A program made the translations under genes and the position numbers. From Acidobacteriaceae bacterium (GTDB taxonomy: Bacteria; Acidobacteriota; Terriglobia; Terriglobales; Acidobacteriaceae), in assembly GCA_030037635.1 (NCBI GenBank), contig JASHQH010000130.1, positions 1 to 38,996 of the forward strand: a stretch of DNA of 38,996 bases, written 5' to 3'. Shown piece after piece: positions 15,645 to 33,458 of this stretch. Each line of letters opens with the position of its first letter. Positions within the stretch are counted from its first letter, which is position 1. The notes under the pieces are model-generated. The model made no database searches and was not told the DNA's origin. It saw only the letters and a program-made list of their open reading frames with translations.

Positions 15645-15787
15645 TTCGATCTCTCCAGCAAAGCTAGCGTTGTGCGCCCTGGCCGAACTCGGGTACAGGA
15701 ATTTACCGCACTGCGGCGCCTCCATCCCATGGGGCACCAGTTTGGTCCACCTGCGAGAGCAGATGCACCTTTCGATTGCGCGATAAA

Positions 15788-15793
15788 AACGTT
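15788..15793. promoter_or_regulatory. Possible CG-centred operator core upstream of LacI gene
   Basis: An AACGTT palindrome in an AT-rich setting (TAAAAACGTTAAAG) lies in the 200-base gap between the two LacI genes, about 145 bases upstream of the 15644 start. It resembles the core of LacI-family operators and could serve autoregulation. The outer arms are poorly symmetric, so this is weak. Confidence 0.2.
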
Positions 15794-15844
15794 AAAGCAG
15801 GACTATAGCAGCGAGAATGGCCGGGAGGCAAGCGAATGTCTTAG

Positions 15845-16912: not shown

Positions 16913-16963
16913 TTTTCTTGTTGTAACACGCCGCAAGGCAAATTGGCACTGTGATTTGCTCAA

Positions 16964-18862: not shown

Positions 18863-18892
18863 CGAGCCCCCAAAATCAGCTTGCGATTTCCC

Positions 18893-20716
18893 TTAGTTTC
18901 GCGTCCGTTTTCCCGCCTGCTCTCCGGTAGAGGCTCCGTCAGCGCTCATCTCTGAATGCAATTGTGCGGCAAGCAAAAAAACCAGAGGCGCCTGCCAGTT
19001 GATGGCAATTTCATTGCCAGCATACGATGCGGTTGCGTCGGCGTAGATTTTGGCCGGGGGCAAATCGGGAGGGAGCGCGGCCAGGACTACATCCTGACGG
19101 CCGGCATTGGGTCCTCCGGCGAGCATACCGGGCCAGGGCCCAGGCTGCTTGCCATCGGCGCTGGGCCGGTGATGCGGGTGCTGGACGGAGTGCTCGCCCA
19201 GCCGGGTCACCCAGCAAAGCGAGAATGTGTTCCGCCCCAGCAAATAGTGCAGATCTTCACGCGCCGTATTTACAAAATCAGGATTGGGCTCAATTTCGTT
19301 GGCGATGAGCAGGTCCATCCCATATTGCGCTGCGATTCCGTTCGAGCCCCAAACGAAGTCCTTGGCCTGCAGGCTTACGTGATAGGGGCTGGCGGCTGTG
19401 CGCGCCACAATGGCGCGCGCCGCGGTCAACATGCGTGCACGAATAGCTGCCATGGCCTCGGCATCGGCGTCTTTGCGCCGGGAAAGAACATAGCTGCGCA
19501 GCGCCATGGGAGCCATCGAACTCCAGTTCGCGGAGGGCGGAGAGTCGAGGCTCGCGAGATAGGGGGCGTACCCCTTGAGGAAAAACCGATGGTAGGTTGC
19601 GTCGCCAGTGGTGCGCCACAGCTCGACGGCTGCCCAAAGCCGCTCGTCGGCGCAATTGAAATCGCCGTACTCCCCGGTGGTGATGCCGGGCGGGTTTCGG
19701 AAGGTCACGTCGGGGTACTGCTCGGCCCAACGCCAGGCACGCTCGGCAGCATCGAGAGCCTGCGCGGCAAATTGAGGATCGTAGGGCTTGTAGACGCGTG
19801 CGGCAATCGCTGCGACGGCGGCCAAGTCGGCCGTGGCGCAGGTGCTCTTGTAGGGCGGCGCGCCGGTCCCGATCACTTCGCTGGGCAGCCTATCCTGCTC
19901 AGGAGCGATGAAGCCGGAAAAATGCTCGCTGGTCTGCTTGTGCCAGGCGCCTCCGTCCGTGTCCTGCATGGCAAGCATCCATTTCAGGTTCCAGCGCGCT
20001 TCGTTCAGAATGTCGGGGGTACCATTTCCTGTTTCGGGAATCTTGAGCTGAATCGGACCAAGGTTGCGACCGAAGATCTCCCAAGCCCACAGCAGTGTGC
20101 CCGTGCTTACGCCAGAGTTGACCATATAGCGGCCGTAGTCGCCTGCGTCGTGCCAGCCGCCCAGGTTGTCACGCGGCCCCGTTTTGCCGGAGCTGGGGTG
20201 AAATTCGCCGTGCAAGTGGCAAGCCGCGTGGGCGTACCCAGGAAATTCCGGCCCCAGATCCACTGCCGCTCCGCAACGCTGCCCGTAAAAGGCACGCATG
20301 GCGAGGTAATAGGCATGATCGTCGACGTTGCCACTTATGCGAAAGGTCCAGCTTTTGCCCACTCCGGGGATCAGAATGAAGTAGGTTCCGGGCAGCCGTA
20401 ACGGGGAGAAGTCCGCCGTCTCGACCGTATCTCCGGTGAGAGGGTCGAAAACGGGCGGTCCGAGGGCGGCTTGAAATTCCACCATTCCATCGCTGGACCG
20501 CCTGATCTCAAAGGTTTTAGCTGAGGCGCTGACGACCGCGAACTTGGGGCTATCGGCCAGATAGCCCACCTGGTCGACCTTGATCGCCGGCGTAGGGTTC
20601 TCGGCAGCGTAAAGCAGACCCCCGGGGACGAGAGCCAAGCACGTAGCGCATAAGCGCAGCCACCGGGGAAGGCTGGTGTGAGAGTTTCGCAGGGCCGCAA
20701 TGAGTGAAGGAGCCAT
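18893..20716 (-). CDS. GH9 endoglucanase (cellulase)
   Basis: Starting at ATG 20716 (a GTG at 20737 is possible), the 607-residue product has a signal peptide with core 'LCATCLALVPGGLLYAA', an N-terminal Ig-like domain of the CelD type ('IKVDQVGYLADSPKFAVV') and a GH9 alpha/alpha barrel. The catalytic base/nucleophile-activating Asp pair is in GGWHDAGDYGRYM (Asp190, Asp193). The histidine motif is 'LGRNTFSLCWVTRLGE ... HPHHRPS', and the catalytic acid is Glu569 in AGNEIAINW. All key residues are present. GH9 enzymes hydrolyse beta-1,4-glucans such as cellulose, lichenan or xyloglucan. It is the first gene of the minus-strand run with the symporter, and it is divergent from the GH94 phosphorylase, so it should supply cello-oligosaccharides. 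No cellulose-binding module is visible. Confidence 0.9.
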   Translation of the reverse strand: MAPSLIAALRNSHTSLPRWLRLCATCLALVPGGLLYAAENPTPAIKVDQVGYLADSPKFAVVSASAKTFEIRRSSDGMVEFQAALGPPVFDPLTGDTVETADFSPLRLPGTYFILIPGVGKSWTFRISGNVDDHAYYLAMRAFYGQRCGAAVDLGPEFPGYAHAACHLHGEFHPSSGKTGPRDNLGGWHDAGDYGRYMVNSGVSTGTLLWAWEIFGRNLGPIQLKIPETGNGTPDILNEARWNLKWMLAMQDTDGGAWHKQTSEHFSGFIAPEQDRLPSEVIGTGAPPYKSTCATADLAAVAAIAARVYKPYDPQFAAQALDAAERAWRWAEQYPDVTFRNPPGITTGEYGDFNCADERLWAAVELWRTTGDATYHRFFLKGYAPYLASLDSPPSANWSSMAPMALRSYVLSRRKDADAEAMAAIRARMLTAARAIVARTAASPYHVSLQAKDFVWGSNGIAAQYGMDLLIANEIEPNPDFVNTAREDLHYLLGRNTFSLCWVTRLGEHSVQHPHHRPSADGKQPGPWPGMLAGGPNAGRQDVVLAALPPDLPPAKIYADATASYAGNEIAINWQAPLVFLLAAQLHSEMSADGASTGEQAGKRTRN

Positions 20717-20836
20717 ATGGTTGGTTTCGCCTGGCACCAGCGCCCGAACGGAGTGGAAAGACGGACCAGTCTCTCACATTCCTGCAACGCGGGCAACGGG
20801 TGGGTTGTGCGGCGATGGATGAGCGCCGGAATTCCC

Positions 20837-20866
20837 TTGTTCCGCTCTCGCCGTATCGAGTATAAT
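20837..20866 (+). promoter_or_regulatory. Sigma-70-type promoter for the GH94 gene
   Basis: TTGTTC (20837-20842) and TATAAT (20861-20866) are spaced by 18 bases, giving a predicted start near 20873 and a leader of about 90 bases before the ATG at 20963. On the opposite strand TATACT (20864-20859) overlaps the same -10 and could belong to the divergent GH9 operon, though I find no good -35 for it. Confidence 0.55.
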
Positions 20867-20962
20867 CGCCCATCGCTCAAACCAGGCTCTGCTCAAACGT
20901 TTTGGCGGATTGTTGTCGGAAGGCGAGCCCGGTTGCGCACCGAGCAAAATGGGGCATCGGTC

Positions 20963-23407
20963 ATGAAGTTCGGGTATTTCGACGATGGCAACCGCGAGTA
21001 CGTGATTACGCGACCCGATACGCCCCTGCCGTGGATCAACTACCTCGGCTGCCAGCAATACTTCGGCATTATCTCCAACACCGCAGGAGGTTACTCGTTC
21101 TTTCGCGATGCGCGTATGCGCCGCCTGACGCGCTATCGCTACAACAATGTTCCTTTCGACTGCGGAGGCCGGTATATTTACCTGCGCGACCGGGAGTCGG
21201 GCCAATTCTGGTCGCCCTCGTGGCAGCCGACCCGTCACGCCGCGGAGAACTATTCCTGCCGCCATGGCATGGGCTACACCATCATCGGCTCTTCATGCGC
21301 ACAGATTGAAGCCGAGACGCGGTATTTCGTACCCCTCGATGAAAATCTGGAGCTGTGGCAGCTGACCGTGACCAACCGCCGCCCTCAGCCGGCACGGATT
21401 TCAGTTTTTGGCAGTGTCGAGTTTTGTTTGTGGGATGCCCAGGACGACGCTACAAATTTCCAACGCAATTTCAACATCGGCGAAGTGGAGGTGGCCGACG
21501 GCGTTATTTATCACAAAACCGAGTATCGCGAGCGCCGCAATCACTTTGCATATTTTGCCTGCTCAGAAGCGACTGCCGGCTTCGACACGCAGCGCGACGC
21601 ATTTCTCGGCGCGTATAGCGGCTGGGACAAGCCGGCCGCCGTGGCCGCCGGGCAATTGAGCAACTCCGTGGCTCACGGCTGGTCTCCCATTGGCGCCCAC
21701 CAGGTGGATCTGGAACTGGCTTCAGGAGAGGCGAAGCAGATTGTCTTCGTGCTTGGTTACCACGAGAATCCGAACGACCACAAGTTCGATCCTCCCGACT
21801 CGCAAAGCATTAGTAAGGGGACAGTGAAGCCGGTGATCGCCAGATATCGCCGCGTTCAAGAGGCCAACGCGGCCTTCGATCGTCTGCGCAGGTACTGGGA
21901 TCGCGTGCTGGGCATTTTCCAGGTGAGCACTCCCGATATCCACACCAATCGCATGGTGAATATCTGGAACGCGTACCAGTGCATGACAACATTCAACCTT
22001 TCGCGATCCGCGTCATTCTTTGAATCGGGCATCGGCCGTGGGCTCGGCTTTCGCGATTCAAACCAGGACCTGCTGGGTTTTGTGCACATGGCGCCGGCGC
22101 GCGCACGGGAGCGAATCCTGGACCTGGCCGCGACGCAACTGAAAACGGGCGGCGCCTATCACCAGTACCAGCCGCTCACCAAGCGGGGAAACAACGATAT
22201 TGGAAGCGGATTCAACGACGATCCGCATTGGCTCATTCTTGGTGTGGCAGCCTACCTGAAGGAGACCGGCGACTGGAGCATTCTGGACGAGCCCGTGGCG
22301 TATGACAACGAGCCCGGCTCCGAGGCGCCGCTCTACGAGCATCTGCGACGCAGCATTTGTTACACGCTGGAGCGTCTTGGGCCGCATGACCTGCCGCTTA
22401 TCGGCCGCGCCGATTGGAATGATTGCCTCAATCTGAATTGTTTCTCCGACGCGCCCGGCATGTCGTTCCAGACATCTTCGAACAAAGATGGCAAGGTGGC
22501 CGAGTCAGTATTCATCGCCGGCCTGTTTGTGCAAAGCGCCCGCGAACTGGCGGCGATCGCCGGCCGGCGCGATCACAAGGAAGACGCAGCTCACTTCCTG
22601 AGCGCGGCCGACAGAATGGAACAGACCGTTAAGAGTCACGGATGGGACGGCGAGTGGTTCCTGCGCGCCTACGACAGCTTCGGCGTCAAGATCGGCTCAA
22701 AGGAGTGCGAAGAGGGCAAGATCTTTACCGAATCGAACAGCTTTTGCGTGCTGGTAGGCATCGGTCTCGACGACGGCAAGGCCGCGCAGGCTGTGGCAGC
22801 CATGCGCAAGTACCTGGCCACGCAGCACGGAATTGTGGTACATCAGCCGGCGTACACCCGATACTATCTCCAACTGGGAGAGATTTCGTCATACCCGCCG
22901 GGCTATAAAGAGAACGCGGGCGTTTTCTGCCACATCAATCCCTGGGTGATGATTGCGGAGACGCGGCTGGGGCATGGCGATGAGGCGCACGACTATTATC
23001 TCCGCATCAATCCGTCGGCGCGCGAAGAGATCAGCGAGGTGCACCGCTGCGAGCCCTATGTTTACGCACAAATGATCGCCGGCAAGGACGCGCCCACTTT
23101 CGGTGAGGCCAAGAACTCCTGGCTCACGGGAACGGCGGCATGGAACTATTACGCGATTGCGCAATGGATTCTCGGCATCCGGACCACTTATGACGGGCTC
23201 GAAATTGCTCCCGTGATTCCCAGGAGCTGGCCCGGATTCACGGCCACGCGGAGCTTCCGTGGGACGATTTATAAAATTGCCATCACGCGAAAAGGTCCCG
23301 GCAACTGCATTGCGCTGACCGTGGACGGCACGCCGGTGAAGGGCAATACCGTGCCTCTGCCCGGAGATGGCCGCAAAGAGATTTCTGTGACGGGAACGTT
23401 GAGCTGA
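20963..23407 (+). CDS. GH94 cellobiose phosphorylase
   Basis: I chose the ATG at 20963 because family members begin exactly with 'MKFGYFDDxNREYVITRP'; 82 upstream in-frame codons are leader. The 814-residue length matches cellobiose phosphorylases. It has an N-terminal beta-sandwich ('PWINYLGCQQYFGIISNTAGGYSF', about residues 1-290), a helical linker and an (alpha/alpha)6 barrel with 'FRDSNQDLLGFVHMAP', 'HQYQPLTKRGNNDIGSGFNDDPHWL' and the catalytic GRADWNDCLNLN motif (Asp484 and Asp487; the second is the probable general acid). The phosphate site is likely in 'YPPGYKENAGVFCHINPW'. The enzyme converts cellobiose plus phosphate to glucose 1-phosphate and glucose in the cytoplasm, saving ATP. 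It is divergent from GH9 and the symporter, which together make a complete cellulose-to-glucose-1-phosphate route. Confidence 0.95.
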   Translation: MKFGYFDDGNREYVITRPDTPLPWINYLGCQQYFGIISNTAGGYSFFRDARMRRLTRYRYNNVPFDCGGRYIYLRDRESGQFWSPSWQPTRHAAENYSCRHGMGYTIIGSSCAQIEAETRYFVPLDENLELWQLTVTNRRPQPARISVFGSVEFCLWDAQDDATNFQRNFNIGEVEVADGVIYHKTEYRERRNHFAYFACSEATAGFDTQRDAFLGAYSGWDKPAAVAAGQLSNSVAHGWSPIGAHQVDLELASGEAKQIVFVLGYHENPNDHKFDPPDSQSISKGTVKPVIARYRRVQEANAAFDRLRRYWDRVLGIFQVSTPDIHTNRMVNIWNAYQCMTTFNLSRSASFFESGIGRGLGFRDSNQDLLGFVHMAPARARERILDLAATQLKTGGAYHQYQPLTKRGNNDIGSGFNDDPHWLILGVAAYLKETGDWSILDEPVAYDNEPGSEAPLYEHLRRSICYTLERLGPHDLPLIGRADWNDCLNLNCFSDAPGMSFQTSSNKDGKVAESVFIAGLFVQSARELAAIAGRRDHKEDAAHFLSAADRMEQTVKSHGWDGEWFLRAYDSFGVKIGSKECEEGKIFTESNSFCVLVGIGLDDGKAAQAVAAMRKYLATQHGIVVHQPAYTRYYLQLGEISSYPPGYKENAGVFCHINPWVMIAETRLGHGDEAHDYYLRINPSAREEISEVHRCEPYVYAQMIAGKDAPTFGEAKNSWLTGTAAWNYYAIAQWILGIRTTYDGLEIAPVIPRSWPGFTATRSFRGTIYKIAITRKGPGNCIALTVDGTPVKGNTVPLPGDGRKEISVTGTLS

Positions 23408-23464: not shown

Positions 23465-24748
23465 TCACAACCCACTGAAGTCTTCTTGCTCGCCGCTCGC
23501 GAAGACTGCTCCATCGAAGACAATGATTCTCTGCTTGCGCAGGTTGGCCACGGTTTCCAGCGGTGAATGGCGCGTGACGATGAATCGGGCGCGATAGCCG
23601 GCCTTGGCCTGGCCAAACTTCTCCTTAAATGCCAGCCGATTTGAGCCAACTCCAGTGGCAGAATTGATGACTGCGAGCGAATTGAGCCCCGCGCGCTCCA
23701 TCAGCTCCAGTTCATCGAGCAGGCCCAGCCCGTGCGCTACGCCCACGGAACCGGCGTCGCTCCCGGCGACGACTTGCACGCCCATGGCGTGAGCCTTCAC
23801 CAGCGAGGCTGCATGATTCTCAAGAATCCTGTTCAGGTTGGCGACAACGCTTGCGTCCCAACCCATGGCGTCGGCGTGATCCACCTGCTTCTGCACGGGC
23901 GCAAAGGTGGGCACCCATGCAACCTGCCGGTCGCGCATTTTAGCCAGCTGATCGTCACGAACAAAAAATCCGTGCTCGACGGAATCCACGCCGCCATCGA
24001 TCACATGTTCAATGCCTGCGTCACCGGAGGCGTGAGCGAGAGTTTGCTTGCCGAAGGCGCGAGCGGCCGCAACCAGCGCGGAAACTTCCGGGGTGGTCAT
24101 CTGCGGCGCAGCCGTGACAGCGCCTTTTTTGAAATTGATGATGCCGGTGGGAATGAGCTTGATGCGATCGGCTCCCGCCTTGACGCGGGCCTCGACACAG
24201 GCGCGCGGCGAGGAAAAACTCTCGATGGGTTCGGCCATGAATCCGCCATAGCGGCCGCGATGATGGATGGCTGCGCCGGGGCTGTCGACGTAAGGCATGA
24301 GCGGACGCTCGCCGGCGGCGTAAAGCTGGCTCAGCGCCAGGCCCACGCCGTCTTTATCGCCCGCGTCGCGCACGCCGGCCACGCCGATGCGGACAAGTTT
24401 TTCCAGGCGCAGCCGGGCCAACCGCAACAGCTCTTTTGGCGATTGCTCGAGGAAGGCCGCGCGTTTGTCGAGATCGAGCTCGCTGCCGGCGAGAAAAAAG
24501 TGAGCGTGGGCCTCAATCAGGGACGGCAATAACGTGCATTCGGACAAGTCAGCGTCCGGCGCCGACTGTCCAGCGCGGACGAGGCGAGCAGGCGGAGAAT
24601 CCACGTCCGCATAGAGGATTTGCTGCTTCTGGTAAACGATGTGTGCATTGCGCAGCGGCGTGGTGCTTACGCCATCCAGCAAGGTTCCCACGCGGAGCCA
24701 GACGCGGCGTCCATCCGACGCTTCGGGAATCAGCGCTGTCTGATCCAT
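23465..24748 (-). CDS. Amidohydrolase (imidazolonepropionase/prolidase-like), last gene of C1 operon
   Basis: The ATG at 24748 follows the upstream gene's TGA by one base, so translation is probably coupled. The 427-residue product has the PF01979 layout: an N-terminal beta part ('VWLRVGTLLDG', 'NAHIVYQKQQI') and a metal-dependent TIM barrel with His81 and His83 (EAHAHFF), a possible bridging Lys197 (RIKLIPTG), His239 (LAHASG), His259 (VEHGFF) and Asp331 (GSDAGS). All ligands of a binuclear site appear to be present. Members hydrolyse cyclic amides, hydantoins, dipeptides and related C-N bonds. No signal peptide is visible, so it should be cytoplasmic. Its place in a corrinoid methyl-transfer operon suggests it releases an N- or O-methylated substrate or handles a by-product, but the substrate is unknown. 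Confidence 0.8.
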   Translation of the reverse strand: MDQTALIPEASDGRRVWLRVGTLLDGVSTTPLRNAHIVYQKQQILYADVDSPPARLVRAGQSAPDADLSECTLLPSLIEAHAHFFLAGSELDLDKRAAFLEQSPKELLRLARLRLEKLVRIGVAGVRDAGDKDGVGLALSQLYAAGERPLMPYVDSPGAAIHHRGRYGGFMAEPIESFSSPRACVEARVKAGADRIKLIPTGIINFKKGAVTAAPQMTTPEVSALVAAARAFGKQTLAHASGDAGIEHVIDGGVDSVEHGFFVRDDQLAKMRDRQVAWVPTFAPVQKQVDHADAMGWDASVVANLNRILENHAASLVKAHAMGVQVVAGSDAGSVGVAHGLGLLDELELMERAGLNSLAVINSATGVGSNRLAFKEKFGQAKAGYRARFIVTRHSPLETVANLRKQRIIVFDGAVFASGEQEDFSGL

Positions 24749-24749
24749 C

Positions 24750-25679
24750 TCAGAGATCAACGGCCGCGGCCTCCCTGCAGATAGACATGATGGCCTCAGC
24801 CTGGCGGAAACCGGAAGTCTCGTGTGTCTCGCCATCGCGCGGCCGTCCCTGCTCGAGCGCGTCGCGCAGTTTCGCCACCATGGGGTGATCGGGCGGCAGC
24901 GGTGCGGGCTTCTTTTCGGGGTTGGCCAGGGCAAAGTCGAGCCCGACCTCCATTCCCAGCGTGAGATACGCCTTTTCCAAGTCCTCGCGCACTTCCCTGG
25001 GCGTGCCCCACGCAAAATTCGAAAGGCCCACCAGCATGTGTACGCCTTTCAGATCGGGATCAGCGCTGATCATGCGCATGGCATCGAGGCCGATGTTCAC
25101 CAGCCCGTAAGTGTCGGCGCCCACCGGCGCCAGGCCCGGATCGATGATGATCTGGTCGTTGCGGCGTCCTGCTTTGGTGACGAGCAGCTCAACGAAATGT
25201 TTGGCAGCGCGGTGGGAATCTTCAGGGTTGAGGCACTGCGCGGTGCCGCCGGGCACGAATGTCTCGGAGGCCATTACCACGGCGAGGGTGTCGTAGTGCT
25301 TCACCAGTTCGACCATCTCGTCGAGGTGCTCGCGCGAGGCGGCCAGAGAATTGAGGATGGGCGCGCCACTGCGGGTGCGGTCGTAGTGCTTGAGCGCCGC
25401 TTTGTGATATTCGACGGAGGGATTATCGAAAGCAATGGGCGTGGAGGTTGCCTCCTGAATGGCCGGAATTACGTCGGGCAAAAAGTCCAGCATCTCCTGG
25501 CGGCGCACCTGGATTCTTTGCGTGCCGTCGAGGTTCAGCGTCAGGTAATCGACGCCCAGAGCCGATTCGAGTTTGGCGAGCTCCTGATATCCGCGGGGAT
25601 CGCGATGGTGGAATGCCTTGCGTGCGCGAGCGTAGGAGTTGTTCATCAGCTCGCCGATGACGTGCAGTTTCTTGCTCAT
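24750..25679 (-). CDS. Methyltetrahydrofolate:corrinoid methyltransferase (pterin-binding)
   Basis: The start ATG overlaps the stop of the upstream MetFV gene in an ATGA. The 309-residue product is a PF00809 (dihydropteroate-synthase-fold) barrel like AcsE/MtvA. Visible features are 'VDYLTLNLDG' (about 43-52), 'PIAFDNPSVEYHKAAL' (81-96), 'ILNSLAAS' (108-115), 'IIIDPGLAPVG' (177-187) and 'VGLSNFAWGTP' (217-227), where Asn221 matches the conserved Asn that binds N5 of the pterin in AcsE. Such enzymes move a methyl group between the corrinoid protein and tetrahydrofolate, and they correspond to module 2 of MetH. Here the enzyme would take methyl from the corrinoid protein at 31732 to make methyl-THF for MetFV, or run the other way. 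It is cytoplasmic. The C-terminal tail after residue 260 is hydrophilic and unremarkable. Confidence 0.88.
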   Translation of the reverse strand: MSKKLHVIGELMNNSYARARKAFHHRDPRGYQELAKLESALGVDYLTLNLDGTQRIQVRRQEMLDFLPDVIPAIQEATSTPIAFDNPSVEYHKAALKHYDRTRSGAPILNSLAASREHLDEMVELVKHYDTLAVVMASETFVPGGTAQCLNPEDSHRAAKHFVELLVTKAGRRNDQIIIDPGLAPVGADTYGLVNIGLDAMRMISADPDLKGVHMLVGLSNFAWGTPREVREDLEKAYLTLGMEVGLDFALANPEKKPAPLPPDHPMVAKLRDALEQGRPRDGETHETSGFRQAEAIMSICREAAAVDL

Positions 25680-27262
25680 GATTTCAGTGCTCCGGCCTCA
25701 ACGGGAATCTTCTCGGGCGATGCGGCGGACGCACGCCTGGCAGAATGATCGCGGCCGAGCCAGTTATTGGCCCACGCCGAAGTTCCGCGCAGGCCCTGGT
25801 TTTGGACCACCGGCGCATGATCGAGGAGGGCCAGTTCCCTGCCCTCATGCTTCAGCCGCTCGTAGGCGCGCAGCCAAATGCAGTCGCCAAAGCCGTCCAC
25901 CTCACACCGGCCCTCGCGCGTGCCGCCGCAGGGACCATTGCGCTGATTCTTGGCACACTGCGACTCGGGGCAAAGGTAGGCAATGTCGGGCAGCGAGCAG
26001 TCGCCGCAATCCTTGCAATTGAACAGGACTTCTTTACTCAGTTTCTCCAGCACCCGGAGCGGCCGAGGTCCTTGCATGGGATCCTTGGCGCGCGCGCAGG
26101 CCTTCGCACCCCACTTGGCAAAGGCCGCGTCAGGCTCGAACATGGTGCGATGCGACCATTTCGACAGTTCGTACACCGCAGTGATGTGCTTGCTGTGGCT
26201 CTGCGGCCGCGGATTTTCGCGCGTCCGGTCGGCAAGCCCCGTGGCAGGATCTTCTGCGTAGAAAAAGAACTCGCCGGGCCGCGAGAAGCGGATTTCACGG
26301 GCAAATTGCTTCCAGTCGCCGGGTGAAAACGTGCGCTCGATCTCGAGGATTCTTTCAATGGCGGGAAAACTGTGCACTCCGCCCAGGTAGGCCCCGCGAA
26401 ATCCAAGGCCGCGACAGATGGCAATCTGCTTGGCCGTCAATTCCAGAAAGAATGCCTTGCCGCCATCGGGCGACCGGCTCTGTTTCTGGCAAAGTTCCCA
26501 AAGCGCGTCGGAGATGACGACACCGGGAATCCTGCCTTCATGGAAAAGCTTCGCGACGCGCGGTCCGAGCAGATAGACATTGCCGATCAGCGGCGTGTGC
26601 TGCATGCCGTGCGTATCCATATAAAAGCGCAGTTCGGAGATTTTCCGCGAATCGAAGCCGATCTGGTTGATGATGAACTGGGCGCCGCATTGGACCTTCT
26701 TTTCAAGTTTCAAATACTGCGGCATCACTTCGCCTTCGCGCAGCTTGAAGTTGGTGGTAACGGCGCCAATGCAAAACTGCGTTTTTTCCAGGCGGTAATC
26801 ATCGCCCTGCGCTTGTCCCGCGCCCAGGCCCTGGTTCATTTTGTGCAGAAGCGAGATGAGGCCAATGGAATCGATATCGAAAACCGGCTTGGCGATGCCT
26901 TCGTTGCCAGCCACAGGATAATCGCCGGTCATGGCGAGGATGTTGTTGAAGCCCTCGCTGTTCAGCATCCACGCCTCGCTCTCGAGGGCGTTGCGGTTCA
27001 GGTCCTTGCAAGTGAGGTGAATTACCACTTCCTTGCCGGCGTAGAGGATGGGCCGTCCCAGGGCAAGCGGGGCGAGTTGCGGATTGCCGCCCGCGTTATC
27101 GGTGATCGAAACCCAGTCGATTTGCGGGCACGCCACCAGCTCATTGGCAAAACTGCGGGCCTTGATGGCGCTGCTTTCGGCCATCGAGCCGCGCACGGAA
27201 ACCAGCTCCGTTGCTATCAGGAACCGGGTTTCGTCGCGGAGTTTTTCCCGCAAGGTCTGCAT
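25676..27262 (-). CDS. metF: MetF-MetV fusion: methylene-THF reductase with Cys-rich C-terminal domain
   Basis: The ATG at 27262 has AGGA five bases upstream. The 528-residue protein combines a MetF-like flavin TIM barrel ('TELVSVRG', 'FANELVACPQIDWVSITDNAGG', 'HLTCKDLNRNALES', 'LAMTGDYP', about residues 1-300) with a MetV-like C-terminal domain. The latter has eight Cys in 46 residues (416, 419, 422, 431, 436, 445, 453, 461; 'CKDCGDCSLPDIAYLCPESQC', then 'GPCGG'), likely binding Fe-S. In acetogens MetF and MetV are separate subunits; here they are fused. The enzyme interconverts methylene-THF and methyl-THF. In this operon it probably oxidises methyl-THF produced by the pterin methyltransferase. 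The partner electron carrier is not encoded in the window. It lies downstream of the 109-aa unknown gene and overlaps the methyltransferase gene by 4 bases. Confidence 0.85.
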   Translation of the reverse strand: MQTLREKLRDETRFLIATELVSVRGSMAESSAIKARSFANELVACPQIDWVSITDNAGGNPQLAPLALGRPILYAGKEVVIHLTCKDLNRNALESEAWMLNSEGFNNILAMTGDYPVAGNEGIAKPVFDIDSIGLISLLHKMNQGLGAGQAQGDDYRLEKTQFCIGAVTTNFKLREGEVMPQYLKLEKKVQCGAQFIINQIGFDSRKISELRFYMDTHGMQHTPLIGNVYLLGPRVAKLFHEGRIPGVVISDALWELCQKQSRSPDGGKAFFLELTAKQIAICRGLGFRGAYLGGVHSFPAIERILEIERTFSPGDWKQFAREIRFSRPGEFFFYAEDPATGLADRTRENPRPQSHSKHITAVYELSKWSHRTMFEPDAAFAKWGAKACARAKDPMQGPRPLRVLEKLSKEVLFNCKDCGDCSLPDIAYLCPESQCAKNQRNGPCGGTREGRCEVDGFGDCIWLRAYERLKHEGRELALLDHAPVVQNQGLRGTSAWANNWLGRDHSARRASAASPEKIPVEAGALKS

Positions 27263-27310
27263 CCGTTTCCTACTCCCTGGCGGCATGAGCCGCGCCGCAG
27301 CCACGCGCAA

Positions 27311-27640
27311 TCAAAGCGCGAGAAAGATTGCGTTCTCTTCAACGGTCAATTCGACGCCCGCCGCCTTTGCGGCTTCCTGAAGCGCGGCGTTGAGCATCAC
27401 CACAGGATCGCGGCTCACGTCGAGCCGCCGCATCAGCCCCTCACCTTTCTTTGCACCCGCGGTGAGCGTGATCTTGAGCCCGCGCCGTTTGCAGCGCACC
27501 GCCGTGCCGTCTTCGAGCTTCACATTCATGGGCTTGATGTAAGCGTCGACGTAGTGAACGCCGATGCCCGACTTGTCATCGGTGTGCGCCGGCAGCTTCT
27601 CACTCGCCGCCTGGTTCACATCACAAAGTTTGACTTTCAC
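27311..27640 (-). CDS. Small conserved-looking protein of unknown function (109 aa) in C1 operon
   Basis: A GTG at 27640 with GGAG six bases upstream gives 109 residues; it overlaps the end of the homocysteine methyltransferase gene by 20 bases in another frame. I do not recognise the family. The sequence is soluble and charged: an N-terminal part 'VKVKLCDVNQAASEKLPAH', a middle with several strands ('GIGVHYVDAYIKPMNVKLEDG', 'AVRCKRRGLKITLTAG'), then a helix ('VVMLNAALQEAAKAAGVEL'). It has two Cys, no signal peptide and no membrane segment. The tight overlap, its own ribosome-binding site and the continuation into metFV argue that it is expressed with the operon. It might be a subunit or chaperone for one of the methyltransferases or for MetFV; this is conjecture. 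Confidence 0.7.
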   Translation of the reverse strand: MKVKLCDVNQAASEKLPAHTDDKSGIGVHYVDAYIKPMNVKLEDGTAVRCKRRGLKITLTAGAKKGEGLMRRLDVSRDPVVMLNAALQEAAKAAGVELTVEENAIFLAL

Positions 27641-28574
27641 GCTGCACTCCGCTTCCCGCCATGCCCTTGGCCTCGAAATACTCATCCATGGCCTTTCTAA
27701 AAGCGCGTATGTGGTCGGGCGTGCTGCCGCAGCACGCACCCACAATGTTCGCGCCCGCCTCAAGCAGCGGCACCACGCCTTTCACCATCTGCTCCGGGGT
27801 CTCGTCGTATACCACTTTCATGTTGACGAGCCGTGGCTTGCCCGCATTGGGCTGCACCATCACCGGCAGGCTGGTGACGCTCCTGTAGCGCTCCACGGCG
27901 GTGCGCGCGCGCTCCATCTCCATGCCGGTCCCACAATTCAGCGCGACGATGTGCACGCCGTGCTCTTCCATGAACTCCGCGGCACGCTCCGGATCGACGC
28001 CCATCATGGTGCGAAAGGTGGATCCGTCAAGGGTGGCATCGTAAGCCATGGAGCCGATAATGCACCTGGCGCCCGCCGCCTGAGCGGCACGAATGCCCAG
28101 CAGCAGCTCTTCGAGCGAAGTTTGCGTCTCGACGATGATGGCGTCGGCGCCGCCGTCCACCAATGCCGCCGCCTGCTCTGCAAAAGCGCTTTGCACCTGT
28201 TCTTCGGTAAAGTCTCCGAAGGGGGCAAGCAATCCACCGAAAGGCCCAATATCGCCCAGCACGTAGCCATCGCGCTCACCGAAGGCCTGGCGCGCGATAG
28301 CCACGCCCGCTTTGTTGATCTCGACCACCTGGTCTGCCTCGGAGTGCCGGTTGAGCATAATGCGCGACCCGCCAAAGGTGTTGGTGATCAGGCAATCCGA
28401 GCCGGCATCAACGTAACGCCGCTGAATGGCCAGCACGCGTTCAGGATGATCGAGGTTCCAGAGCTCGCCGCAGTTTCCCTGCTCCAGGCCCGCAAACATC
28501 AACTGCGTGCCCATGGCTCCATCGCCCAGCAAGGGCCGCTCCAGAATCGCTTCCTGCAAAAGTTTTTGGTTCAT
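27621..28574 (-). CDS. Homocysteine S-methyltransferase (MetH module-1 type)
   Basis: The ATG at 28574 overlaps the stop of the upstream gene (ATGA). The 317-residue product is a PF02574 barrel: 'LLGDGAMGTQL' start, 'LWNLDHPERVLAIQRRYVDAGSDCLITNTFGG', 'DGYVLGDIGPFGG', 'DAIIVETQTSLEE'. The three zinc-binding Cys are Cys214 (LNCGTG) and Cys281-Cys282 (GACCGST). It matches the N-terminal homocysteine module of cobalamin-dependent methionine synthase and lacks the pterin, B12 and activation modules, all of which are present as separate genes in this operon. It probably methylates homocysteine from the corrinoid protein at 31732. Transfer to another thiol, or use of S-methylmethionine as donor (as in MmuM), cannot be ruled out, but context favours the corrinoid. 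Confidence 0.88.
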   Translation of the reverse strand: MNQKLLQEAILERPLLGDGAMGTQLMFAGLEQGNCGELWNLDHPERVLAIQRRYVDAGSDCLITNTFGGSRIMLNRHSEADQVVEINKAGVAIARQAFGERDGYVLGDIGPFGGLLAPFGDFTEEQVQSAFAEQAAALVDGGADAIIVETQTSLEELLLGIRAAQAAGARCIIGSMAYDATLDGSTFRTMMGVDPERAAEFMEEHGVHIVALNCGTGMEMERARTAVERYRSVTSLPVMVQPNAGKPRLVNMKVVYDETPEQMVKGVVPLLEAGANIVGACCGSTPDHIRAFRKAMDEYFEAKGMAGSGVQRESQTL

Positions 28575-29827
28575 GGCTCTTTCTCCCGAGCGAGATCCTT
28601 CTGCGCCAAAGCGTAATGAATCGTCTCCAGCACCAGTCCCCACTTGTGCATGCGGCTGGGCGTTTCGCAATAACATCCCGCGGCATGGGGCAAGCGCGGC
28701 CACGCTAAAACGGCATTCAGTCGCTCGCCTTGCAGCGGTTTCTCGCTCTCAATGGCCGTCATCAGGCGTTCAGGATCGCGCTGATATTCGCACATGGCGG
28801 TGTGCCCGGCGTCGCCGGCAGCCGGCACGCAGCGCTGCTCGCGAATGGGATAGCCTTCGGCGCGCGATCCCAGGCGCACGTGATAGTTGAATGCCAGCGG
28901 GCGTCCCATGTTGGTGCATGTTGTTCCGTCGTAGCGGAACACCGCATCGAGCGAGCCGTCAGCTCGCTCTGAGATCGACAGGCGCTCATCTGCCCATCGC
29001 GCCAGGGCTCGCTGGTTCACGCTGTACTGTGCGTCGGGGTCGAGCACGGCAGCGGAAATGGGCAGCGGCTCGCCCGCCGTTCGAGGGGCGCGGCGGTACG
29101 GAGCCCGCCGATATTGGCACGGGCCCCAGGAGCAGTTCTGGCAAGGAACCAGTCCAGCCAGGCTGCGCAAATGCTCAGTGTGCTGGGTCAAACCGAAGAC
29201 CGCCAGCAGCGTTTTTTTAGGCCGCAGCATGCCGGTTGGGAAAACTTCAACATGCGAGGGAAACGATTCGCGCTGCGTCTGCTGGATCAGCTCGAGCAGG
29301 CGCGGCTGCTCGGCGACGTCCCACTCCGGATAGCCGGGGCTGGAATGCGGCAGCACCGCCATGCCGCGCTGTTCAGCCCAATCGCAAAGGCGCGCTCCGG
29401 TTTCGGCAGTTAGCTGCTCCACCACCGCGGAACCGAACACTTCAAGAAAGAAATACTCATCGGGTTTTTCGTCGCGCCAGCGGCGCTGTGCTTCTTCTTC
29501 AATTTCGGCGCCTGCTCCTACAGCAACGAGAATCACGCTGTGCGCCTGAGCCTGTTCAAGCGTGCGCTTGAGCCGCGTGGCCGAAAATGGCACACCTTCA
29601 ACGCGAATCGCGTCGCCCGCAAACTCGAATTGCTCTGCCTGGCGCGCGTAGAACCACGGGCGGCCGTGGGCCGCGTACCATGCGCGCGCCCAATCGGCGA
29701 GCTCTTTGGGCCTGCCCTCGAATACCCATCCGCGCGGATAACCGAGCAGACGGGCATACTCTTCGGGCAACACGTTCACGCCCGGAAGCACGCCGGCGAG
29801 CTCGATCTGTTCCGCTACCTGGCGCAC
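28571..29827 (-). CDS. MetH-activation-like protein with novel Cys-rich C-terminal domain
   Basis: The GTG at 29827 has GGAGG seven bases upstream and overlaps the RACo gene stop by 13 bases. The product has 418 residues. Residues about 75-215 resemble the AdoMet-binding activation domain of MetH: 'VILVAVGAGAEIEEEAQRRW', then 'PHSSPGYPEWDVAEQPRLLELIQQ', comparable to the PGYPACPDH region, and 'FPTGMLRPKKTLLAVFGL', comparable to the FAMxPAASVSG region. The C-terminal half, which I cannot assign, carries eight Cys: C229-x2-C232-x4-C237, C304, C333, C346 and C385-x-C387, in 'CQNCSWGPC', 'MCEYQRD' and 'AGCYCETPSRMHKWGLVLETIHYAL'. This could hold an Fe-S centre. A corrinoid reductive-reactivation or electron-delivery role is plausible but not shown. 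It sits between RACo and the homocysteine methyltransferase. Confidence 0.7.
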   Translation of the reverse strand: MRQVAEQIELAGVLPGVNVLPEEYARLLGYPRGWVFEGRPKELADWARAWYAAHGRPWFYARQAEQFEFAGDAIRVEGVPFSATRLKRTLEQAQAHSVILVAVGAGAEIEEEAQRRWRDEKPDEYFFLEVFGSAVVEQLTAETGARLCDWAEQRGMAVLPHSSPGYPEWDVAEQPRLLELIQQTQRESFPSHVEVFPTGMLRPKKTLLAVFGLTQHTEHLRSLAGLVPCQNCSWGPCQYRRAPYRRAPRTAGEPLPISAAVLDPDAQYSVNQRALARWADERLSISERADGSLDAVFRYDGTTCTNMGRPLAFNYHVRLGSRAEGYPIREQRCVPAAGDAGHTAMCEYQRDPERLMTAIESEKPLQGERLNAVLAWPRLPHAAGCYCETPSRMHKWGLVLETIHYALAQKDLAREKEP

Positions 29828-31458
29828 GGAATGGCCTCCACCACCTTGAACTGGCAGCCCTCGACAAAGAAATCGAAGAAATGCGGATGGGTTTCAAGGC
29901 GGCAATGCTGCACCTTTTTCACCAGCGCTTCCAATTCCTGGCGCCTGGACTTTGAGAGCAGAGCAAGGGTCGCGCCTTCAATGGCGATGTTCCCGGCCGG
30001 CACCATTTTCGCGGAATCGAGATCGGGCACCAGCCCGATGCGCTTCGACGAGTCCACTTTGAGGTGCCGGCCGAAACCTCCGGCGAGATAGAACGTATCG
30101 ATCTCGCTGAAATCGATGCCGTAGCTGCTGAAGACAACATGCAGCCCCGCGACGTTCGCTCCCTTGGCCTGCGCCAGCTCATTCACATCGCCTTCAGTCA
30201 GGAAGATCTCCTTGCCGCCATCGTGGTAAAGCGTGATGCGGCGAATGTCATCTTCGAACCGCCCCATCTCATTCATGCGTCCGGTGCGCAGCAATTCGCT
30301 CAGCAGGTCGACGAGACCCGATCCGCAGATGCCTTCGGGCGCACCGCCGCCGATAACGCCGAGGCGAAAGGTGCCGTCATCGCCAATCGCTACGTCTTCA
30401 ATCGCTCCTTCAAGCGCCGGCATGCCGCAGGAGATGGCGCCACCCTCGAATGCCGGGCCAGCCGGGCACGATGCCGCCAGAATACGGTGTTTGTTGCCGA
30501 CAATCAGCTCGGTGTTGGTGCCGATGTCCATCACCGCAATCAATTTTTCTTCGTGGGCCAGATTCACGGCCAGCATGGCGGCCGCGGCGTCGGCGCCCAC
30601 GTGGCCGCTGATGACGGGCGCGCCATACACGCGCGCCCTGGGATGGATGGGCAGCAAGCTGCGCGCGCCGTTCTGCACAAGGCTGGTGGTTGTGCGCTTG
30701 CCCTCGGCCATCTCGATTTCGGTGATCGATCGGTAAGGGTTCTGGCCGATAGAATGGACGCTCTGCCGGAAAAACAGATCGCGCATGGTCGAATTGCCGA
30801 CTACGACCATTTCGTAGATGGTCTTCGGGTCGACGGGGAATTTCTCGATGGCGTGGCTCAGGTATCCGGCCAGCGTGCGCAGCAGCAGGCGCCCCGGATG
30901 CTCGCCGTCGTAAGCGATGCGCGACATGACGTCGGACCCGCCAAAGCGCTGCGGATTTTCGAACGAAGTGTCGGCGATCAACGCGCCGCTCTCGAGATCG
31001 ATGAGTCGCAGAACCACGGTTGTGGTCCCCAGGTCCACGGCAATGCCGTGAATCGGGCCGGCCGACCGCTCCACTTCCGCGCCATCGATGAGAATGCGAT
31101 CGCCCGCGCGCGTCACGGCCGGGTCGAGCGCGAATCCCTTGAGCTCCGGCAATCCCAGCGCGCGGCTTTCGATGCGCATGTGTCCGCGCCGCATGGTGTG
31201 GCAGCGTACGTGGCCGGCCGGCGCGGCGACAAAGGTCTGGCAGGAGAGGCGGAACTTTCCTTTCAGATGCCGCTCGGGCTCAGTGGGAGCCGACAGCGCG
31301 TCCATTCCCTCCACAATTTCAACCATGCACTCACGGCATTTGCCTTGTTTGCGGCACGAGGTGGGAACGTCGATGCCCAGCGCTTCGGCCTGGTCGAAGA
31401 GCGACAAGCCCGGCCTGGCTTCGACCGATTGCCCATTGATGGTGAGAGTCGCGGCCAT
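29815..31458 (-). CDS. RACo-like corrinoid activation protein (2Fe-2S ferredoxin + ASKHA ATPase)
   Basis: The ATG follows directly on the TGA of the small protein gene. The 547-residue product begins with a plant-type [2Fe-2S] ferredoxin domain (Cys35, Cys41, Cys44, Cys73). A linker leads to an ASKHA-fold ATPase with 'GIAVDLGTTTVVLRL' (about 137-151), 'MVVVGNSTMRDLF', 'VMDIGTNTELIVG' and 'APEGICGSGLVDLL', ending near 'FYLAGGFGRHL'. This is the architecture of the reductive activators of corrinoid proteins (RACo/RamA-related, DUF4445), which rescue Co(II) that forms when Co(I) is accidentally oxidised, using ATP and a low-potential electron. Its target should be the corrinoid protein two genes upstream. 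It shows that the corrinoid system is meant to work with a Co(I) supernucleophile. A separate MetH-activation-like protein follows, giving the operon two candidate reactivation systems. Confidence 0.92.
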   Translation of the reverse strand: MAATLTINGQSVEARPGLSLFDQAEALGIDVPTSCRKQGKCRECMVEIVEGMDALSAPTEPERHLKGKFRLSCQTFVAAPAGHVRCHTMRRGHMRIESRALGLPELKGFALDPAVTRAGDRILIDGAEVERSAGPIHGIAVDLGTTTVVLRLIDLESGALIADTSFENPQRFGGSDVMSRIAYDGEHPGRLLLRTLAGYLSHAIEKFPVDPKTIYEMVVVGNSTMRDLFFRQSVHSIGQNPYRSITEIEMAEGKRTTTSLVQNGARSLLPIHPRARVYGAPVISGHVGADAAAAMLAVNLAHEEKLIAVMDIGTNTELIVGNKHRILAASCPAGPAFEGGAISCGMPALEGAIEDVAIGDDGTFRLGVIGGGAPEGICGSGLVDLLSELLRTGRMNEMGRFEDDIRRITLYHDGGKEIFLTEGDVNELAQAKGANVAGLHVVFSSYGIDFSEIDTFYLAGGFGRHLKVDSSKRIGLVPDLDSAKMVPAGNIAIEGATLALLSKSRRQELEALVKKVQHCRLETHPHFFDFFVEGCQFKVVEAIPCAR

Positions 31459-31725
31459 TCAATGAATTCCCCGCCAGTCCCTGGCTTCCAGCTCCGTCTT
31501 CACAGCCTCAGCCACTTCCCCCGCGGAACCTTCGCGCTCTTCCTCCTCGCTCCACTTCCACTGCGCAAGAAAGTCGTCGGCCGAGTGCAGCCCTCGCTTG
31601 GTTGCAATCGCATCCACCAGCTTCATGAAGCGGTCGTCGAGCGGCAGGGTCACGTCATCCACACCGTCGTCGGCCTTGATCTGGGTCGGAATTTCCTGCC
31701 AATAAAGAACCTTGTAGATCGCCAT
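31459..31725 (-). CDS. Small PF13769-type ('virulence factor') protein
   Basis: The 88-residue protein ('MAIYKVLYWQEIPTQIKADD ... LPLDDRFMKLVDAIATKRGLHSADDFLAQWKW') matches what I recall of PF13769, a family named 'virulence factor' from little evidence. It is acidic at the C-terminus (EEEEREGSAGEVAEAVKTELEARDW), soluble, and has no Cys, signal peptide or membrane segment. The gene lies six bases after the corrinoid protein gene and directly abuts the RACo gene, so it is embedded in the core of the operon. My memory is that homologues also sit beside metF, corrinoid and ASKHA genes in marine alphaproteobacteria, which would suggest a real role in C1 transfer rather than virulence. The biochemical function is unknown. 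Confidence 0.75.
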   Translation of the reverse strand: MAIYKVLYWQEIPTQIKADDGVDDVTLPLDDRFMKLVDAIATKRGLHSADDFLAQWKWSEEEEREGSAGEVAEAVKTELEARDWRGIH

Positions 31726-31731
31726 GGCTGT

Positions 31732-32373
31732 CTACGCCTGCTCCACAAGCCGGAGAAACAAATCTACGGCGGCCGACGCATTGGCCCCATAGCCGTCGGC
31801 GCCAATCTCGTCAGCAAACATCTGGCTGATGGGCGCGCCGCCGACTGCCATCTTGATGTGCGTCAAGCCCGCGGCGTTGAAGCCGTCGATCACGGTTTTC
31901 ATATACATCATGGTTGTGGTCAGCAGCGCGCTCATGCCGATGATGTTAGGCTTGCACTTCTCGGCCGCGGCCATGAACTTTTCAACGCTCTGGTCCACCC
32001 CGATGTCGTGCACCTCGAAGCCTGCACCCTCGGCCATCATGCCCACGAGATTCTTGCCGATGTCGTGCAGGTCGCCGCGCACGGTGCCCATGAGGAGCAC
32101 GCCTTTGGGCCTGGTGCCGCTCTCCTTCGATGTGAGCAGCGGCTTGAGCACCGCCATCCCCGCCTTCATGGCGCGTGCGGCAATCAGCACCTCGGGGACG
32201 TAGAGGACGTTGTGCTTGAAGTCCTCGCCCACCACGCTCATGCCCGCAATCAACCCCTCGTTCAGCACCTCCTGCACGGCGCGTCCCTCGGCGAGCGCCT
32301 CTTTGGTGAGCCGCTCCACCTCGCCGGCGTTTCCCTCGTAGAGGTACTGGTTCATCTGGGCGTAATCGGGCAT
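31732..32373 (-). CDS. Corrinoid (B12-binding) methyl-carrier protein
   Basis: The ATG at 32373 has GAGGAG upstream and follows the UroD-like gene by 11 bases. The 213-residue protein has the two-domain layout of MtaC/MtvC/MttC carriers: an N-terminal helical cap (about 1-85, 'EVLNEGLIAGMSVVGEDF', 'YVPEVLIAARAMKAGM') and a Rossmann B12 domain (about 88-213) with 'GTVRGDLHDIGKN', in which His103 is the lower axial cobalt ligand (DxHxxG), followed by 'GMSALLTTTM' and 'VGGAPISQMFADEIGADGYGANA'. All B12-binding motifs are intact. It should accept methyl from the UroD-fold methyltransferase encoded just upstream and pass it to tetrahydrofolate or homocysteine through the two downstream methyltransferases. 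RACo would reactivate it. It corresponds to module 3 of MetH. Confidence 0.95.
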   Translation of the reverse strand: MPDYAQMNQYLYEGNAGEVERLTKEALAEGRAVQEVLNEGLIAGMSVVGEDFKHNVLYVPEVLIAARAMKAGMAVLKPLLTSKESGTRPKGVLLMGTVRGDLHDIGKNLVGMMAEGAGFEVHDIGVDQSVEKFMAAAEKCKPNIIGMSALLTTTMMYMKTVIDGFNAAGLTHIKMAVGGAPISQMFADEIGADGYGANASAAVDLFLRLVEQA

Positions 32374-32384
32374 CCTGTCGCTCC

Positions 32385-33458
32385 TCAGCGCGCGCTCGAA
32401 ACGGCGCCGGCGGCGCGCTTGGCGTTGAACTCTTCAAGGGCCTCGAGCATTGCGAGAATGTTTTCGCGCGGCATGCCGGGACTGGTGCCGCCGCCCACTG
32501 AAAGGATGATCCCTTCGCCGCCTGAGCTCTCCAGCACGTCGAGGGTTTCGTCTTTCACTTCGTCGGGTGTGCCGCGCACGCCAATTTCGAGCGGGTTCAC
32601 ATTCCCCATCAGGCACATGCGATCGCCCACCCGCCGCTTCACTTCGCTGATGTGCTTCTGCTTGCCCCAATTCAACACGTTGAACCCGGTGTCGGGCAGA
32701 TGATCGAGGCAAGCGTCGACTTCGGCGTCGTTGTGGTACACCTTGACCCAATCCTTGGGGAAAGCGTCGCAGATGCGCTTCAAATAAGGATGCGCGAATT
32801 CCAGATAGTGCTCCTCGTTGATGAAACCCACGATATCGTCGAGGATGAAGATGCTCTCGACGGTATCGCCCATCACTTTCTGCTGTGCCTTGAGCCAGTC
32901 AATGATGACGCGCGTGCAGAGGTCGATGAGCTTGTGCGCGCCCTCGGGATTCTCCACCAGGTCGATCATGAAGTGCGTGGTGCCGCGAACAAAGCCGGCG
33001 GTGCAGAGCGGACCGCGCGAGGTAACCATGGGCAGAATGTAGCCGGCGTCGAGGATGCGCTGCCTCGCCATGCCGATGCGGTGCAGGGTGAGGCCCGCAA
33101 AGGCGTCGGCATCCACTTCGTACTCGGGAAAATTGTCGATGTCTTCGAGCCGGTACAGGGTGTGGTACTCGCTGGGCGTGTTGTCCTTCCAGAACTTGAT
33201 CTTGGCGCCCAACACCGAGGGCTCCGCCGCCATGCCGTATTCCATCCACCAGGAGGGGACGAAGATGATGTCGGGGAACTCGCGCATGATTTTGAGATTC
33301 GACTGGAACCACAGCTCGGGATCGAGAAAGTAGTCCATGTGGCCGATGCCCAGATAGCCCGGAATCCAGGGGCTATCAATAATGAGCGCCATGGGGATTT
33401 TGTCCATCTTCTCGCGGCGCGCAGCCCGCTTGAAGGTTTCCCATTGTTCCCGCAACAT
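32385..33458 (-). CDS. Uroporphyrinogen decarboxylase-fold methyltransferase (MT1), substrate unknown
   Basis: The ATG at 33458 has AGGAGG seven bases upstream; an in-frame extension to 33581 lacks such a site. The 357-residue product is a UroD-family (PF01208) TIM barrel: 'KIPMALIIDSPWIPGYLG', 'YILPMVTSRGPLCTAGFVRGTTHFMIDLVENPE', 'FILDDIVGFINEEHYLEFAHPYLKRI', 'MCLMGNVNPLEIGVRGTP', 'IILSVGGGTSPGMPREN'. Where MtaA/MtbA-type enzymes have the zinc ligands His-x-Cys and a later Cys, this protein has His242-Asn-Asp244 and a Gly-rich SVGGG, so it should not be a thiol (coenzyme M) methylase. As the first gene before the corrinoid protein, it is best read as MT1, transferring methyl from a methylated substrate to Co(I), like MtvB in vanillate O-demethylation. 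The donor may be a methoxylated aromatic or an N-methyl compound; sequence alone does not tell. Confidence 0.82.
   Translation of the reverse strand: MLREQWETFKRAARREKMDKIPMALIIDSPWIPGYLGIGHMDYFLDPELWFQSNLKIMREFPDIIFVPSWWMEYGMAAEPSVLGAKIKFWKDNTPSEYHTLYRLEDIDNFPEYEVDADAFAGLTLHRIGMARQRILDAGYILPMVTSRGPLCTAGFVRGTTHFMIDLVENPEGAHKLIDLCTRVIIDWLKAQQKVMGDTVESIFILDDIVGFINEEHYLEFAHPYLKRICDAFPKDWVKVYHNDAEVDACLDHLPDTGFNVLNWGKQKHISEVKRRVGDRMCLMGNVNPLEIGVRGTPDEVKDETLDVLESSGGEGIILSVGGGTSPGMPRENILAMLEALEEFNAKRAAGAVSSAR

Follow-up and report, generated by a model that had tools for sequence, protein, structure and literature searches.

A corrinoid methyl-transfer operon of Acidobacteriaceae with a genomic link to glucuronate genes

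A ten-gene block with a conserved core and a separable module

The stretch of DNA analyzed here (38,996 nt; hereafter, the window) is from an Acidobacteriaceae bacterium (assembly GCA_030037635.1, contig JASHQH010000130.1) and carries a block of ten genes on its minus strand (23465..33458). The block appears to encode a corrinoid methyl-transfer system, most likely one that takes the 4-O-methyl group off 4-O-methyl-D-glucuronate, a reading to which we assign a probability of ∼0.6. Its genes are as follows (THF, tetrahydrofolate):

32385..33458, minus strand: MT1, URO-D-fold corrinoid methyltransferase, predicted donor-side (4-O-methylglucuronate) demethylase (PF01208, 142.9 bits)
31732..32373, minus strand: Cor, stand-alone corrinoid protein (PF02607 and PF02310, B12-binding_2 and B12-binding; GDLHDIGKN motif found by eye)
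31459..31725, minus strand: p88, small PF13769 (Virulence_fact) protein (55.6 bits)
29815..31458, minus strand: RACo, ATP-dependent corrinoid reactivase with 2Fe-2S and ASKHA parts (PF14574, 238.1 bits; PF17651; PF00111)
28571..29827, minus strand: Act, predicted MetH activation-domain fold (residues 5–230) with a C-x2-C-x4-C motif and a Cys-bearing C-terminal domain of ∼170 aa
27621..28574, minus strand: Hcy, homocysteine S-methyltransferase-type acceptor enzyme (PF02574, 205.5 bits; NCG and CCG motifs found by eye)
27311..27640, minus strand: p109, conserved small protein that closes the core
25676..27262, minus strand: MetFV, MetF-MetV fusion, accessory module (PF02219, MTHFR; PF12225, DUF5981)
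24750..25679, minus strand: Pter, predicted methyl-corrinoid:THF methyltransferase, accessory module (PF00809, Pterin_bind, 47 bits)
23465..24748, minus strand: Amid, amidohydrolase, accessory module (PF01979, Amidohydro_1, 75.4 bits)

The initial annotation had described ten minus-strand genes joined by overlaps or short gaps, and all ten were recovered in place. From MT1 to Amid, the intergenic distances are 11, 6, 0, −13, −4, −20, 48, −4, and 1 bases; within this range of −20 to 48, the 48 bases between p109 and MetFV are the sole loose junction. Its family assignments were borne out by Pfam for eight of the ten products, which score above the cut-offs. Act (418 aa) and p109 (109 aa) had no Pfam match at 0.01 and none in NCBIfam at 0.1, nor had Act any match by sequence in the Protein Data Bank (PDB); Act was assigned through its predicted fold, and p109 is left without a family. 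Narrower models scored below their cut-offs throughout: NF005719 for Pter (93.3 bits), the Xaa-Pro dipeptidase model NF051886 for Amid (131 bits; cut-off 500), PRK08645 and PRK07534 for Hcy, and, for Cor, both TIGR02370 and the MtgC model, the latter giving its best NCBIfam score. In the Pfam and NCBIfam scans, Hcy groups with homocysteine and betaine-homocysteine enzymes. The block contains separate corrinoid, pterin, and homocysteine proteins together with a RamA-like activase, and only one URO-D gene. Beside the operon, window positions 11140-23407 hold a cellulose-type locus (GH42-like, two LacI regulators, SSF symporter, GH9, GH94).

An Act-based scan of species genomes returned 34 loci. 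The 25 referred to as Acidobacteriaceae-type, to which the window belongs, are labeled Acidobacteriaceae, Acidobacterium, Acidobacteria, or Terriglobia (L031); the other nine are from Bryobacterales (L022, L024, L034), Solibacteraceae (L027), Sulfopaludibacter (L028), Terriglobia (L020), Gemmatimonadetes (L026, L036), and a metagenome-assembled genome labeled Gammaproteobacteria (L023). Profiling gene order across these relatives revealed the full series MT1-Cor-p88-RACo-Act-Hcy-p109, with its order unchanged, in 22 of the 34 loci; of the remainder, nine are truncated at a contig boundary, L020 and L034 are partial, and L036 has an MttB-type MT1. So many related loci share all seven genes in one arrangement that the core gene order is beyond chance. 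Hcy is present in 31 loci, the other three being cut, and MT1 orthologs are 75–95% identical to that of the window.

The initial annotation had treated all ten genes as one unit. This holds for their adjacency in the window, but MetFV-Pter-Amid is a module separate from the core. A Pter ortholog (E 2e-120 or better) was found in 13 of the 33 genomes or records searched (32 genomes and the plasmid record of Gemmatirosa); in the other 20 (19 genomes and the plasmid record), matches to Pter reached at most E 1e-10 or poorer and were mostly to MetH. MetFV and Amid adjoin Pter in all 13 loci (cut in L088, where the trio is a 2.7-kb piece), and the trio lies near the core in only three of the 13 genomes: end to end in the window, facing it in L017, and diverging from it in contig L143. 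Nine further trio genomes showed no core gene in the 12–18 kb fetched around the trio. Among 200 genomes of the family, MT1 (at least 77% identity) occurs in nine and Pter in four, all four within those nine (Fisher 1.9e-6); the trio thus goes with the core, and not vice versa.

Some loci deviate or carry additional genes. In L023, RACo-Act-Hcy-p109 are 57–78% identical to the window, which reflects either transfer or a binning error. A second, distant URO-D protein lies beside matches to Act, Cor, and Hcy in L082:7561-8769 (G362). Upstream of MT1, a protein with a MEDS (methylotroph/methanogen sensory) domain is encoded 234 bases away in L015:977-2065, and a LacI regulator and an MFS transporter are encoded on the same strand in L016:3683-6035 and L019:3355-5704.

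Glucuronate genes and the candidate methyl donor

In two Bryobacterales loci, L022 and L024, the gene of a mandelate-racemase-family dehydratase ends just before MT1; its closest PDB entries are putative glucarate dehydratases (4it1, 2.9e-76), and it scores below NCBIfam cut-offs. On the same strand, p109 is followed by a short-chain dehydrogenase/reductase (SDR) and an α-glucuronidase of glycoside hydrolase family 67 (GH67) in L022, L024, L027, and L028 (in L022, GH67 is in two frames); 18 bases separate p109 from SDR in L022 and 330 in L024. The SDR scored best with the gluconate 5-dehydrogenase, KduD, and mannonate oxidoreductase models, always below the cut-offs, and an SDR also follows p109 in L023. 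On the megaplasmid of Gemmatirosa kalamazoonensis, the same-strand order is D-mannonate oxidoreductase (350.9 bits; cut-off 281), an open reading frame with a UxuA domain (above the Pfam cut-off, below those of the NCBIfam uxuA models), and MT1-Cor-p88-RACo-Act-Hcy-p109; the plasmid also encodes GH67, far from the core. The clearest single evidence is contig L143, from the genome of L026, because core, accessory module, and glucuronate genes are on one contig. Here, MT1-Cor-p88-RACo runs into the contig end, and MetFV-Pter-Amid-SDR-dehydratase-GH67 diverges from it on the opposite strand; the SDR is 64% identical to the Gemmatirosa oxidoreductase and the dehydratase 77% to that of L022. Between the two divergent units (L143:3461-5438) are genes for a glycosyltransferase and a PhyH dioxygenase; PHYHD1 and relatives have been reported to demethylate 2′-O-methyl nucleosides (PMC12709175). 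Outside the Acidobacteriaceae-type loci, a glucuronate-type gene stands beside the core or its remnant in eight of ten sources (L022, L024, L027, L028, and L084; L026 via L143; L023 with the SDR alone; L034 with a dehydratase fragment beside a lone Act), and none stands beside the core in L020 and the MttB-type L036.

Within the GH67/glucuronate pathway, it is the 4-O-methyl group that forms the methyl ether. GH67 was found in all nine MT1-containing genomes of the family, compared with 49 of the 191 lacking MT1 (Fisher 9e-6), in genomes that are of one family and not independent, and for a link spotted after the fact; the corresponding figures for GH28, taken as control, were eight of nine and 105 of 191 (p 0.08). 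In a set overlapping this family sample, the genomes or records of the Act loci, 29 of 33 have GH67, and one of the four without it is that of the MttB-type L036. In the host of the window, contig C334 combines a ManD fragment, GH67, an SDR (53% identical to that of L022), a ROK protein, and a GH10 xylanase, and the GH67 regions of G452, G580, and G436 encode a ManD scoring above its cut-off. From fragments of xylan, GH67 releases glucuronate, either plain or 4-O-methylated, as reported for Geobacillus (PMC4194401).

What kind of URO-D protein is MT1? As HemE (TIGR01464), it reached 59.2 bits against a cut-off of 302.95, and as a member of the MtaA/CmuA subfamily (TIGR01463), 100.4 bits against 235.4. 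In a profile alignment with MtaA (4ay7), His242 stands opposite the His, and Asp244 and Gly323 occupy the two Cys positions, of a His-x-Cys ... Cys set which we take to be the zinc ligands of MtaA. With both scores below the cut-offs and both Cys positions replaced, MT1 is neither HemE nor a thiol methyltransferase of the MtaA type. His242, Asp244, and Glu246 are invariant among MT1 orthologs; as cleavage of an unactivated ether needs Lewis-acid help, these residues are proposed as candidates for providing it.

The same set of proteins might instead serve another donor, such as a methoxylated aromatic from lignin or some other methylated plant compound, the link to GH67 then merely mirroring a lifestyle on plant polymers. 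Characterized URO-D methyltransferases of this kind use aryl methyl ethers or haloalkanes (PMC13222342), the best PDB match of the MT1 profile is CdmB, and the GH28 control is itself somewhat enriched. However, the similarity to CdmB is distant (47.8 bits), glucuronate-type genes sit with the core in both Bryobacterales-type and Gemmatimonadota genomes, two unrelated dehydratases (UxuA and mandelate-racemase type) immediately precede MT1, and none of 48 scanned neighbor proteins, a selection, was named as an aromatic-degradation enzyme. Another donor is therefore considered unlikely.

Several points, beside the limits of the GH67 statistics, weigh against 4-O-methylglucuronate as the donor. 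In none of the 25 Acidobacteriaceae-type loci did the core have a homolog of GH67, UxuA, ManD, SDR, or dehydratase next to it; all that was found was a ROK protein resembling the one in the GH67 loci, near the core of L004 and L005. G412, G415, and G422 carry the core or part of it and show no GH67. The 49 genomes with GH67 and without MT1 imply that other ways of dealing with the methyl group must exist, or that the ether is left in place. The Bryobacterales SDR and dehydratase score below the curated cut-offs of the enzymes after which they would be named. G436, one of the nine MT1 genomes, encodes its ortholog (L134:6671-7735, 76–77% identical) without the core beside it, and no corrinoid or RACo match lies within the 18 kb fetched. 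Chemically, the leaving group of an unactivated sugar methyl ether is harder to displace than a phenol, and the two zinc-site Cys of MtaA are missing from the MT1 sequence. Finally, 19 of the 32 genomes, whose completeness is mostly not told, have no Pter and hence no obvious sink for a stoichiometric methyl flux. Such a sink would be provided if Hcy methylated sulfide or another thiol to methanethiol or dimethyl sulfide, products which Holophaga is said to make from methoxyaromatics; the grouping of Hcy with homocysteine and betaine-homocysteine enzymes makes this improbable.

Act, corrinoid reactivation, and methionine synthase

The predicted model shows Act to be a homolog of the MetH activation domain (PF02965), the fold of which it adopts over residues 5–230. 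Act itself had no PF02965 match at the Pfam gathering score; a relative in L079 did (37.4 bits; cut-off 25). The Arg in the R-x-x-P-G-Y motif of PF02965 presumably binds S-adenosylmethionine (AdoMet). The Act of the window has His161 at this position, the MetH of the same host has Arg, and the Arg is kept in none of seven sequences with a linked RACo versus 17 of 21 others (p 2.8e-4). The C-terminal domain of Act (window 28571-29100, ∼170 aa) contains the conserved cysteines C304, C333, C346, and C385-x-C387, is absent from short forms, and has no family and weak fold matches only. Act probably presents the corrinoid protein to RACo. It differs from the stand-alone MetH activation protein TM0269 (1j6r) by its three-Cys motif, the extra C-terminal domain, and the His at the AdoMet Arg position.

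p88 weakly matches (33%, E 4e-3) a gene annotated as "virulence factor" on Sinorhizobium meliloti pSymB, which heads the series metV-metF-pterin methyltransferase-hypothetical-RACo. p109, with which the core ends, belongs to a conserved family of small proteins that has members in the MttB-type L036 and L065 as well; the predicted p109 model, fairly confident, had no match in the PDB.

The initial annotation had seen in the block a methionine synthase split into its four modules. A search of the host genome found MetH, not as one chain but as two adjacent genes, a homocysteine module followed by a pterin-B12-activation protein (L002:2993-6948, C236 of the same genome); the split is probably real, as eight relatives have PF02965 frames of similar size (920–933 aa). 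PF02965 scores above its cut-off elsewhere in 30 of the 33 genomes or records, in 29 of them above 100 bits; the three exceptions are the genomes G399 and G419 and the record of the Gemmatirosa plasmid, which does not represent a full genome. Given MetH activation domains in these 30, the operon is not the methionine synthase of the cell. It could still be a conditional, folate-independent one, drawing on plant-derived methyl groups for methionine rather than for carbon supply, with the THF arm an add-on. The near-universal presence of Hcy (every uncut locus), compared with Pter in only 13 of 33, favors this notion. So do 13 Acidobacteriota genomes without a full MetH activation domain (L044, L047–L049, L051–L053, L055–L059, L061), the Act-like proteins of which have retained the AdoMet Arg, as true split methionine synthases should; on sequence grounds these are candidates for such enzymes, and an MttB match lies in the fetched flank of nine of the 13 loci. 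Against it speak the PF02965 proteins encoded elsewhere, the missing AdoMet Arg in the operon's own Act, and the lack of riboswitches at Rfam gathering scores in the five sources searched, so that a role primarily in methionine supply is regarded as rather doubtful.

The absence of folD from the window, noted initially, was confirmed; FolD is encoded elsewhere in the host genome, with no second match within the window. Methyl-THF made by Pter could thus be oxidized via MetFV and FolD.

Known systems, proposed pathway, and significance

The logic of a shared corrinoid protein is already known from MtgBCDE of Ruegeria pomeroyi, where one such protein is common to a catabolic donor and homocysteine (PMC12478193); Phaeobacter inhibens has a split methionine synthase (PMC5764234). 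In the parts of these accounts drawn on, as in the window, donor MT1, pterin enzyme, and homocysteine enzyme all work with a single corrinoid protein that stands alone, alongside a RamA-like activase and a MetF paralog for methyl oxidation. By the same accounts, their MT1 is of the MttB family (PF06253) instead of URO-D (PF01208), they have DUF1638 where the window has the MetH-activation-fold Act, they mostly occur without MetH, which is present here, and the donor of MtgBCDE is betaine, here probably methylglucuronate. DUF1638 (PF07796) was searched for among the ten block products and found in none. The pSymB region of S. meliloti (L085) likewise unites the "virulence factor," MetV, MetF, a pterin methyltransferase, a RACo-like protein, a corrinoid protein, and bmt, but with an MttB-type MT1 and DUF1638, and neither Act nor p109 matched in its 24 kb. 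What sets the window system apart is its MT1 family, Act and p109 without DUF1638 among its genes, its coexistence with MetH, and its apparent donor; new are this putative donor and the type of MT1. N-demethylation of the glycine betaine type, as by MtgBCDE, would agree with the MtgC model giving the best, albeit subthreshold, score for Cor, and with the MttB-type MT1 found with Cor-RACo-Act in L036, L064, and L065. Yet MT1 in the window belongs to the URO-D family, no match to the L036 MttB turned up there by tblastn, and the sugar neighbors go with the URO-D form, the genome of L036 lacking GH67; betaine as the donor is thus very improbable.

URO-D methyltransferase I systems for aryl ether or haloalkane donors (CdmBCA, MtvB, OdmB, VdmB) resemble the window in combining a URO-D MT1 with a corrinoid protein, an activating enzyme, and a THF methyltransferase; in the descriptions examined they have neither a homocysteine enzyme nor Act, and their sequence similarity to the window MT1 is low (PMC13222342). 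Type 1 mlp clusters of obligate anaerobes, as far as described, also associate URO-D proteins with a corrinoid protein and Ram/RACE, but have Mlp2 and Mlp3, often also Mlp1, per cluster (PMC10418091), whereas the window has one URO-D protein and a homocysteine enzyme. A P450 demethylates 6-O-methylgalactose, likewise a sugar methyl ether whose removal lets the breakdown of the polysaccharide proceed; this reaction is oxidative, yields formaldehyde, and involves no corrinoid (PMC8360166).

In the proposed pathway, GH67 would free the 4-O-methyl-D-glucuronate side chain from plant glucuronoxylan, and MT1 would transfer the methyl group, from this compound or one of its derivatives, to Co(I) of Cor. 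From Cor, Hcy would methylate homocysteine to methionine, and Pter, where the accessory module exists, as in the window, would methylate THF; oxidation of methyl-THF by MetFV would then open the folate route. Cor inactivated to Co(II) would be re-reduced by RACo at the expense of ATP, with Act, devoid of the AdoMet Arg and equipped with its Cys-bearing domain, presenting it. Speculatively, the SDR may produce a lactone that Amid then opens. Of the branch point envisaged initially, with methyl groups from an outside donor going to THF or to homocysteine, the shared corrinoid parts stand and a donor is now indicated, while the operon is not the methionine synthase of the cell. The whole picture, a sugar-ether O-demethylase of soil bacteria with homocysteine as default acceptor, an optional folate-oxidation module, and Act recast as partner of RACo, may be right with about even odds.

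4-O-Methylglucuronate is a common side chain of xylan. In the Geobacillus account, GH67 leads straight to the uronate pathway, and a term search of its main text did not find "demethyl" (PMC4194401). Judged by title and start of abstract, the literature matches listed contained no 4-O-methylglucuronate demethylase and no corrinoid demethylation of sugars. If the donor is confirmed, it would be a new substrate class for corrinoid demethylation, a gap in the microbial digestion of plant cell walls would be filled, and methyl groups of hemicellulose would feed methionine synthesis and, via the optional module, folate-linked oxidation. The prediction specifies the enzyme, its carrier and activator, and the acceptors, and is testable in G. 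kalamazoonensis KBS708, a cultured soil isolate (PMC3974934). MT1 proteins of two families occur on a common chassis resembling methionine synthase, which also offers a natural experiment in how corrinoid reactivation driven by AdoMet and that driven by ATP substitute for one another.

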